From Labrys sp. KNU-23 (lineage in GTDB: Bacteria; Pseudomonadota; Alphaproteobacteria; Rhizobiales; Labraceae): 64,000 nucleotides of DNA. The notes beneath the pieces are model-generated. The model worked only from the letters and a program-made list of their open reading frames with translations, did not search any database and was not told the DNA's origin. The first letter of the stretch is position 1, and the number at the start of each line of letters is the position of its first letter. The DNA is taken from NCBI RefSeq assembly GCF_008330945.1, contig NZ_CP043489.1, positions 1,674,001 to 1,738,000 of the forward strand, written 5' to 3'. Both the position numbers and the translations under genes were made by a program. Shown here piece after piece: positions 6,788-38,466 of this stretch.

Positions 6788-6870
6788 CGTTTAGACGGGA
6801 TCGTCAAGAATCGCAACGACGCGTTGAAACGAGATGCTGAGCAAACAGGCATTCAGTCATGAACGCGCTT
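6788..6870. repeat. Dispersed intergenic repeat R1, copy 1
   Basis: Shares with the copy at 38056-38158 the order AAGAATCGCAA, GACGCGT, GAGCAAACA, then GAACGCGCTT, with only small changes. Related copies are at 20494-20578 and 45127-45210, with a shorter match at 17171-17246. All are in intergenic DNA, as expected for a REP/RIME-like element. Confidence 0.7.
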
Positions 6871-6881
6871 GGCCCCGAGCA

Positions 6882-6983
6882 GCGCCCTCCTGATCGAGCC
6901 GTGGGCTCGATCAGGAGGGCGCAGCAAGATATCAGACATTTGCAGCATTTCCGGCAAAGCCCGTCCACAGGCCCTGCCGGAAA
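6882..6983. repeat. Double-hairpin element R6, copy A
   Basis: The first hairpin has perfect 19-base arms (6882-6900 and 6904-6922; left arm starts GCGCCCTCCTGATC) closed by GTG. The second has 9-base arms TTTCCGGCA (6948-6956) and TGCCGGAAA (6975-6983). It lies 14 bases beyond the stop codon of the first fdxA gene, so on the minus strand it would form the 3' end of that mRNA, although no U-run follows. A second copy at 38267-38376 has a different but fully paired main stem. Confidence 0.75.
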
Positions 6984-6997
6984 ATCCGGATTGGCAA

Positions 6998-7336
6998 TCA
7001 GGCGTCGCCTTGGCCCGGTTCCGGCGAGAGCAGCGGCAGCTTGTCCGGCTTGCCGTCCCACTCCTTGGCATCGGGGAAACTGTCGCGCTTGACCGTGATG
7101 TTGGGCCAGCTCTGCGCGAATTTGGCATTCAGCTCGAGCCAGGCTTCCAGGCCCTTCTCGGTATCGGCCTTGATGGCATCCGCCGGGCATTCGGGCTCAC
7201 AGACACCGCAATCGATGCATTCGTCGGGATGGATGACGAGAAAATTCTCACCCTCGTAGAAGCAGTCTACCGGGCAGACTTCCACGCAGTCCATGTATTT
7301 GCACTTGATGCAGTTCTCAGTGACCACGTAGGTCAT
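6998..7336 (-). CDS. fdxA: 7Fe-8S ferredoxin FdxA
   Basis: A small electron carrier of 112 residues with one [3Fe-4S] and one [4Fe-4S] cluster. The cysteine pattern is clear: [18 protein letters not shown], then [12 protein letters not shown]. The C-terminal extension ([19 protein letters not shown], then [13 protein letters not shown]) is typical of alphaproteobacterial FdxA of the Azotobacter FdI type. A closely related paralogue lies upstream in the same direction, 147 bases away. Its electron partners are not evident here. Confidence 0.94.
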
Positions 7337-7483: not shown

Positions 7484-7834
7484 CTACCCGGCCTGTCCTG
7501 CATCCCCGGCACCGGACAGCGCTGAGAACAAGGCGAACTTATCCGGCCTGCCGTCCCATTGCCGGGCATCGGCTGCAGGCTCGCGCCGCACCGTGATCTC
7601 AGGCCATAGATTGGCATAGCGCGCGTTCAATTCAACCCAGGACTCCAGCCCACGCTCGGCCCCCGAGCGGATCGCATCCGCCGGGCAGGCCGGTTCGCAG
7701 ATGCCACAATCGATGCACAGCAAGGGATCGATGACGAGCATATTCTCGCCTTCGCGGAAGCAGTCCACCGGGCATTCGGCGACGCAGTCCATATATTTGC
7801 ATCTGATGCAGTTTTCGGTGACCACATAGGTCAT
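7484..7834 (-). CDS. Second 7Fe-8S ferredoxin, FdxA paralogue
   Basis: A 116-residue tandem paralogue of the gene at 6998. All cluster cysteines are kept ([18 protein letters not shown] and [12 protein letters not shown]), while the C-terminal half has drifted ([19 protein letters not shown]; ends in a Gly/Ala-rich tail). The start at 7834 matches the MTYVVTENC start of the neighbour; an in-frame ATG three codons upstream (7843) is also possible. Two fdxA genes side by side imply duplication followed by divergence, perhaps with different redox potential or expression. Confidence 0.9.
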
Positions 7835-7905
7835 GGCGGCCATTCCATTCGGGAGAAGCCCTCAATGGAATGGCCGGGTGTGGCACGCCCAAGGCGCAAT
7901 TGCGG

Positions 7906-20493: not shown

Positions 20494-20578
20494 GCGTTCT
20501 GCGCTTTGATGGCATCACCAAGAAGTGCAAAGACGCGTTCGAACAAGGAGTTGGAACAAAAGCGCGGTTGGGCCTAGA
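20494..20578. repeat. Dispersed intergenic repeat R1, copy 2
   Basis: Matches other R1 copies at CCAAGAA, GCAAAGACGCGT, GAACAA and AGCGCGGTT, and ends GGGCCTAG. It separates the amidohydrolase start from the lyase homologue stop. Confidence 0.6.
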
Positions 20579-37980: not shown

Positions 37981-38055
37981 GACTACCTCAACGCTCGAAC
38001 TCCGGGGATTGGGCACTGGTTTGAGAAATGGATGACCGGGTATCCGGCCGGCGGC

Positions 38056-38158
38056 TAAAGCGTTTTGCGATTTCTTGGAATCGCCAAGAATCGCAAAGAC
38101 GCGTCTCAACAAGAGCTAGAGCAAACAAGCGTTCACACTTGAACGCGCTTTGCTCTAG
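38056..38158. repeat. Dispersed intergenic repeat R1, best-preserved copy
   Basis: Starts AAAGCGTTTTGCGATTT and ends TTTGCTCTAG. Two nested inverted repeats are visible: TTTGCGATT.CTTGG with CCAAGAATCGCAAA, and CTAGAGCAAA (38116-38125) with TTTGCTCTAG (38149-38158). Copies or fragments lie at 6788, 17171, 20494 and 45127. Confidence 0.75.
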
Positions 38159-38266
38159 TTTTCGCTGTCTGACTCCCGGCCAGCCCCGTTGGCTGGTCTA
38201 GCTGGACAGTTGTCCGGCAACGAAAAGACGGAATGATGACAGTAGAATGATGGGCACGCAGCTCCG

Positions 38267-38376
38267 GCATTGTCCTCTCGATCGACGCATCGGTCGATCG
38301 AGAGGACAATGCGCGATACGAGCATCTGCAGAGTTTCCCGGCGAGGCCATTCAAGGGCCGCGCTGGGAAACTCTGC
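38267..38376. repeat. Double-hairpin element R6, copy B
   Basis: Perfect 20-base arms at 38267-38286 and 38293-38312 (left arm starts GCATTGTCCTCTCG), loop GCATCG. A second hairpin has 12-base arms GCAGAGTTTCCC (38328-38339) and GGGAAACTCTGC (38365-38376). Alignable with copy A at 6882-6983, but the stems differ in sequence and remain paired. Confidence 0.75.
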
Positions 38377-38466
38377 CTGGACAGGCATGCTCGGATTGCT
38401 TGGAGTGTGCCGCGGGCGTACATACCCTCCTGCCATCAAGGCGGAGGGGACTGCCCTGCCGCCGGT

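Follow-up and report, generated by a model that had tools for sequence, protein, structure and literature searches.

Two sites in the window, by which we mean the whole 64-kb stretch of DNA analysed here (G000:C1:1674001-1738000), are probably two occurrences of a palindromic DNA element of ~120 bp that is MITE-like and non-autonomous. This is a new family of mobile DNA, miniature and palindromic, within a kind that is already known. The Labrys genome that contains the window (G000) measures 7.55 Mb and consists of two replicons of 5.39 and 2.16 Mb; at carD its nearest named relative is Labrys okinawensis, with 98% identity. An earlier note on this DNA had described a long perfect stem-loop followed by a second hairpin at both sites, and this architecture was found in each copy, with perfect stems of 19 and 20 bp. 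The sites had been placed correctly; the true boundaries are slightly wider than first given. The two copies and their parts are as follows.

6874..6994, plus strand: full copy 1 of the double-hairpin element, carD-fdxA intergenic; covariance-model score of 104.7 bits over positions 1-122
6879..6925, plus strand: copy 1, hairpin 1; arms 6879-6900 and 6904-6925, with a 19-bp perfect core
6926..6941, plus strand: copy 1, linker, conserved and A+T-rich in the alignment with other copies
6942..6990, plus strand: copy 1, hairpin 2; core 6948-6983
38262..38380, plus strand: full copy 2; covariance-model score of 100.1 bits
38267..38312, plus strand: copy 2, hairpin 1; 20-bp perfect stem with a 6-nt loop
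38313..38327, plus strand: copy 2, linker
38328..38376, plus strand: copy 2, hairpin 2; 24-nt arms, 88% complementary

The perfect stem of hairpin 1 pairs positions 6882-6900 with 6904-6922 in copy 1, and 38267-38286 with 38293-38312 in copy 2. Nowhere else in the 64-kb window is there a perfect stem of 15 bp or more whose loop is 12 nt or shorter, and no such stem appeared in 20 windows simulated from its dinucleotide frequencies. The folding z-scores of the two copies relative to shuffled sequences were ~-8 and -11, as RNA and as DNA alike. Copy 1 does lie directly after fdxA (6998-7336, minus strand), ending 3 nt from its stop codon; this gene and its neighbour at 7484-7843 form a pair (n = 2) of minus-strand fdxA-type ferredoxin genes with Fer4 and DUF3470 domains. 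Copy 2 is flanked by an HNH-endonuclease gene (minus strand) and an MFS transporter gene (plus strand), as judged from Pfam domains of the neighbours, and the tiny minus-strand frame mentioned beside it in the earlier note is still a weak prediction.

DNA searches with each window copy retrieved many more copies in G000. The element is a dispersed repeat of ~120 nt, with two hairpins, a linker of ~16 nt between them and inverted ends, which are CCAAGCAGA...TCTGCTTGG in Labrys and CTAAGCAGG...CCTGCTTAG in the Azospirillum copies. The Labrys consensus reads CCAAGCAGATTCCTCTTGATCGAGCC-nnn-GGCTCGATCAAGAGGAATCTGC, followed by the linker AAGATATCAAACATTT and then GCAGAGTTTCCCGGCGAGGCCCATCCGTGGGCCTCGCCGGGAAACTCTGCTTGG. 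A closing stem pairing both ends was considered and rejected, because outside G003 the pairing is no better than expected from base composition. We built a covariance model from 20 family copies, both window copies among them; its E-values are rough, and the copies analysed score 53 to 141 bits, with independent copies outside the window reaching 138 bits. At the scores of the two window copies, the second hairpins are alignable base by base, as had been proposed, and a chance match is ruled out. The search of related genomes suggested in the earlier note was run with this model and found further structured homologues in Labrys and Azospirillum. The numbers of full-length copies were ~40 in G000, ~20 in G001, ~17 in G002 and ~7 in G003, and a few weak copies were found in G004, also a Labrys; the element is thus present in 5/5 Labrys genomes searched. 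Three truncated copies (L045, L036 and L044) contain hairpin 1 and parts of the linker without hairpin 2, and their sequences suggest decay via loss of the second half.

Among 194 other genomes of the order no match was found, with 18 candidates scored per genome, and among 385 Alphaproteobacteria, with nine candidates scored per genome, matches were confined to the window genome, G205 and G249; with so few candidates scored, absence elsewhere is weak evidence. The Azospirillum-like genome G249 contains four full-length copies (75-78 bits), and G205 one weaker match. A family limited to the genus was ruled out by the finding of G249 in this class-wide search. The three G249 copies that we compared are 92-97% identical, and their flanks are unrelated. 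The element also occurs in seven Azospirillum plasmid records, from A. lipoferum 4B, A. thermophilum, Azospirillum sp. TSH100 and B510. The G003-type Labrys consensus matches the Azospirillum element along its entire length by plain blastn, at 77% and E 5e-11; together with the Azospirillum copies, this match indicates a family common to two orders. The two other Labrys subfamilies gave no plasmid match, the Labrys consensus and the exact linker likewise retrieved nothing when plasmids and genomes were searched at the DNA level, and there was no match to the element among the phages searched. Rfam returned nothing at the element with gathering or relaxed thresholds, and no published description of the Labrys or Azospirillum element was found in the open-access literature searched. 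In two Azospirillum plasmid loci (L324 2501-2619 and L326 2501-2621), annotated genes run 4-5 nt into the element, whose CTAAG end apparently provides the stop codon of the gene beside it.

The distribution of copies between species points to mobility. All six G000 copies examined (6/6) are missing at the orthologous site in at least one sister species. Neither G001 nor G002 has copy 1 in its carD-fdxA spacer, and a second repeat that adjoins copy 1 in G000 is missing there too. Copy 2 is also missing from G001, and a short relic marks its place in G002. For four further G000-only copies, chosen because no element-carrying ortholog had been seen, the joined flanks align without a break in G001 and/or G002, and these are empty sites. 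A 2-bp target duplication fits some of these four sites and not all, and the ends of the Labrys element are mostly CA...TG, which are not direct repeats. Some of the absences in sister species may reflect loss, since copy 2 in G002 resembles a deletion relic. The element shares with MITEs a short length (~120 nt), terminal inverted repeats and the lack of a transposase gene, as well as multiple copies with both occupied and empty orthologous sites. An autonomous partner or a transposase with the same ends was found neither among 20 neighbouring genes nor, as split hairpins, in plasmids. A bias of insertion toward the lagging strand was considered and not retained: GC skew places 19 of 31 chromosomal copies on the putative lagging strand, which is not significant. 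On C1 of G000, GC skew and GGGNAGGG polarity switch at ~0.05-0.1 Mb and at ~2.45-2.6 Mb, and these two sequence features suggest that the main chromosome has its terminus and origin in these regions.

The repeat beside copy 1 is itself dispersed. It is ~104 nt long (...AATCGCAAAGACGCGTCTCAACAAGAGCTAGAGCAAACAAGCGTTCA..CTTGAACGCGCTTTGCTCTAG) and lies in the window at 38053-38160, 6797-6870 (truncated) and 20494-20560, with 11 copies in 464 kb of G000 and many in G001, G002 and G003. In G000 its copies lie mostly between co-directional genes (8-9, compared with two between convergent and 0-1 between divergent genes), a trend that differs from that of the double-hairpin element.

We then consider how the stems are conserved. 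Across the 20 copies, both partners have changed in 31 of 48 pairs, and 88.9% of cells are paired; none of 500 shuffles matched either figure, and pairing fell by half when the partners were shifted by one column. Between orthologous copies, whose flanks are mostly 87-96% identical, 44 double changes preserve pairing vs. 13 that break it, and 48 single changes keep a G-U or Watson-Crick pair vs. 86 that break it, these counts coming from genome pairs within the same ortholog sets and so not being all independent. The earlier statement that pairing rather than sequence is kept therefore holds. Its attribution to selection for structure was borne out as to conserved pairing and not as to selection being the only possible cause, because template-switch correction from one arm to the other in a DNA palindrome yields the same pattern; as far as the alignments go, either selection acting on a DNA hairpin or template switching between arms could have produced the covariation. 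A constraint acting on the transcribed RNA should make G-U commoner than A-C in that strand. The counts were 68 G-U vs. 97 A-C for copies no more than 60 nt from a start codon, 56 vs. 79 for co-directional copies and 126 vs. 140 for all copies, and relative to co-directional neighbour genes 19 copies have the same orientation and 22 the opposite one. Given the lack of a G-U excess and the random orientation, stem pairing seems to be kept at the DNA level.

The positions of the copies relative to genes were determined with a home-made gene finder, whose calls match Pfam at the two window loci. By these calls, 23-27 of the ~54 independent Labrys copies lie between divergent genes, 24-29 between co-directional genes and 0-1 between convergent genes, compared with ~27% divergent and ~13% convergent among control spacers of at least 150 nt; the probability of zero convergent among 52 copies is ~0.001. 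Of 52 independent copies, 31 have a predicted start codon no more than 60 nt away, and in divergent spacers the copies are close to one of the start codons (KS p 2.6e-4). The downstream genes are diverse and ordinary according to Pfam (DNA gyrase B, DNA polymerase III alpha, MurB, tRNA synthetase and ABC transporter). Simple random insertion does not account for the scarcity between convergent Labrys genes. The few annotated Azospirillum copies occur in all gene contexts, two of them convergent, so the position bias is not a property of the whole family.

Of the three readings offered in the earlier note, a small mobile element fits best, given ~40 copies, presence and absence between species, and homologues in Azospirillum. 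A structured RNA, or a 5΄-leader RNA element acting after transcription, for example on mRNA stability or translation, would agree with the strong covariation, with the stable folding of both strands (both hairpins being palindromic, a similar RNA would arise from either orientation) and, for a leader, with the many copies close to predicted start codons. However, G-U pairs do not exceed A-C in the transcribed strand, orientation is random, no Rfam family matches, the downstream genes have no function in common, orthologous genes of sister species lack the element, and convergent genes flank two of the Azospirillum copies. These sequence comparisons do not support a structured RNA, and we consider it improbable. 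An intrinsic terminator or 3΄-end stabilizer might be imagined from copy 1, just downstream of the fdxA stop codon, and from some Azospirillum copies at gene ends, but the hairpins are not followed by a T-run and Labrys copies avoid convergent gene ends, which leaves this role with hardly any probability.

A DNA site maintained by the host upstream of genes, for instance a cruciform to which gyrase or a nucleoid protein binds, would be in keeping with the rarity of convergent Labrys copies and their nearness to one start codon in divergent spacers. Negative supercoiling upstream of divergent promoters would favor a cruciform. On the other hand, the sites of the element are not conserved across species, the few Azospirillum copies do not show this position bias, the bias in Labrys rests on home-made gene calls, and a large share of the stem sequence is free to vary; we regard such a site as unlikely. 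It is likewise unlikely that a RAYT (TnpA-REP) transposase of G000 moves the element as a REP/REPIN or BIME. REPINs and BIMEs are small, dispersed repeats of two inverted hairpins with compensatory changes (PMC3116915, PMC8266576), and the element has the same layout and intergenic location (PMC3116915) in a genome with seven Y1_Tnp genes. The GTAG-type tetranucleotide that should precede the hairpins is absent, however, the consensus having CCAA or TTT before GCAGA. Moreover, at six of the seven RAYT loci, all those fetched (6/6), no copy lies alongside (best partial match 12 bits), and several have their own, different inverted repeats. These six RAYT-like loci are L078-L083; at L081, for example, GGAGTGTCAGCCTCCGGCTGACA flanks the Y1_Tnp gene on both sides.

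Several known families resemble the element in outline. The Rhizobium-specific intergenic mosaic element RIME1, which goes back to Osteras in 1995, is reportedly ~108 bp long, with two large palindromes, intergenic and repeated in Hyphomicrobiales. The likeness in size, palindromes and location is one of outline and not of comparison against the RIME1 sequence, and 300 kb of Sinorhizobium meliloti pSymB gave no convincing covariance-model match (best E 0.14). The Caulobacter CcrM-associated intergenic repeats (CIR; Chen and Shapiro 2003) have GANTC conserved in the terminal loop (PMC2229807). Like our element, compared here with the description of CIR and not its sequence, they are ~110 bp long, intergenic and multicopy in Alphaproteobacteria, with two long inverted-repeat arms and a linker, but GANTC is in or near the loop in 0/57 independent copies of our element; the motif is not enriched within the element either (18/57 vs. 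21 expected). TA-ended bacterial MITEs such as ERIC, Correia/NEMIS and RUP are dispersed repeats of ~100-155 bp with terminal inverted repeats (PMC2229807). Most Azospirillum copies have comparable ends (C-TA-AGCAGG...CCTGCT-TA-G), in which the TA duplication is only putative, but the element differs in having two separate hairpins and is not known to be related to these families in sequence.

The element displays dispersal to unrelated sites, presence and absence at orthologous positions, near-identical copies in Azospirillum and stem pairing despite sequence change. For a MITE-like element, a trans-acting enzyme, probably a transposase, would recognize the ends or hairpins as DNA, perhaps in a single-stranded form or upon cruciform extrusion, and would insert copies between genes. 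From one insertion to the next, complementarity may be maintained by selection on recognition, template-switch correction between arms, or both. Part of the position pattern would follow from the removal of insertions harmful to promoters or genes. The data are explicable without any host function. There is a small chance that this mobile double-hairpin family was co-opted in Labrys as an upstream DNA structure, in which a cruciform would alter promoter supercoiling, thus keeping copies near starts and away from convergent ends, while arm-to-arm correction would keep the stems perfect.

These results also caution against taking covariation by itself as evidence of a structured RNA; because Rfam has no model for the element, RNA searches in these genomes could flag it as a candidate RNA. 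As a mobile DNA, it is a miniature palindromic family that links Labrys (Hyphomicrobiales) and Azospirillum (Rhodospirillales), and its orthologous and recent copies could directly test whether palindromes are kept up by selection or by arm-to-arm correction.
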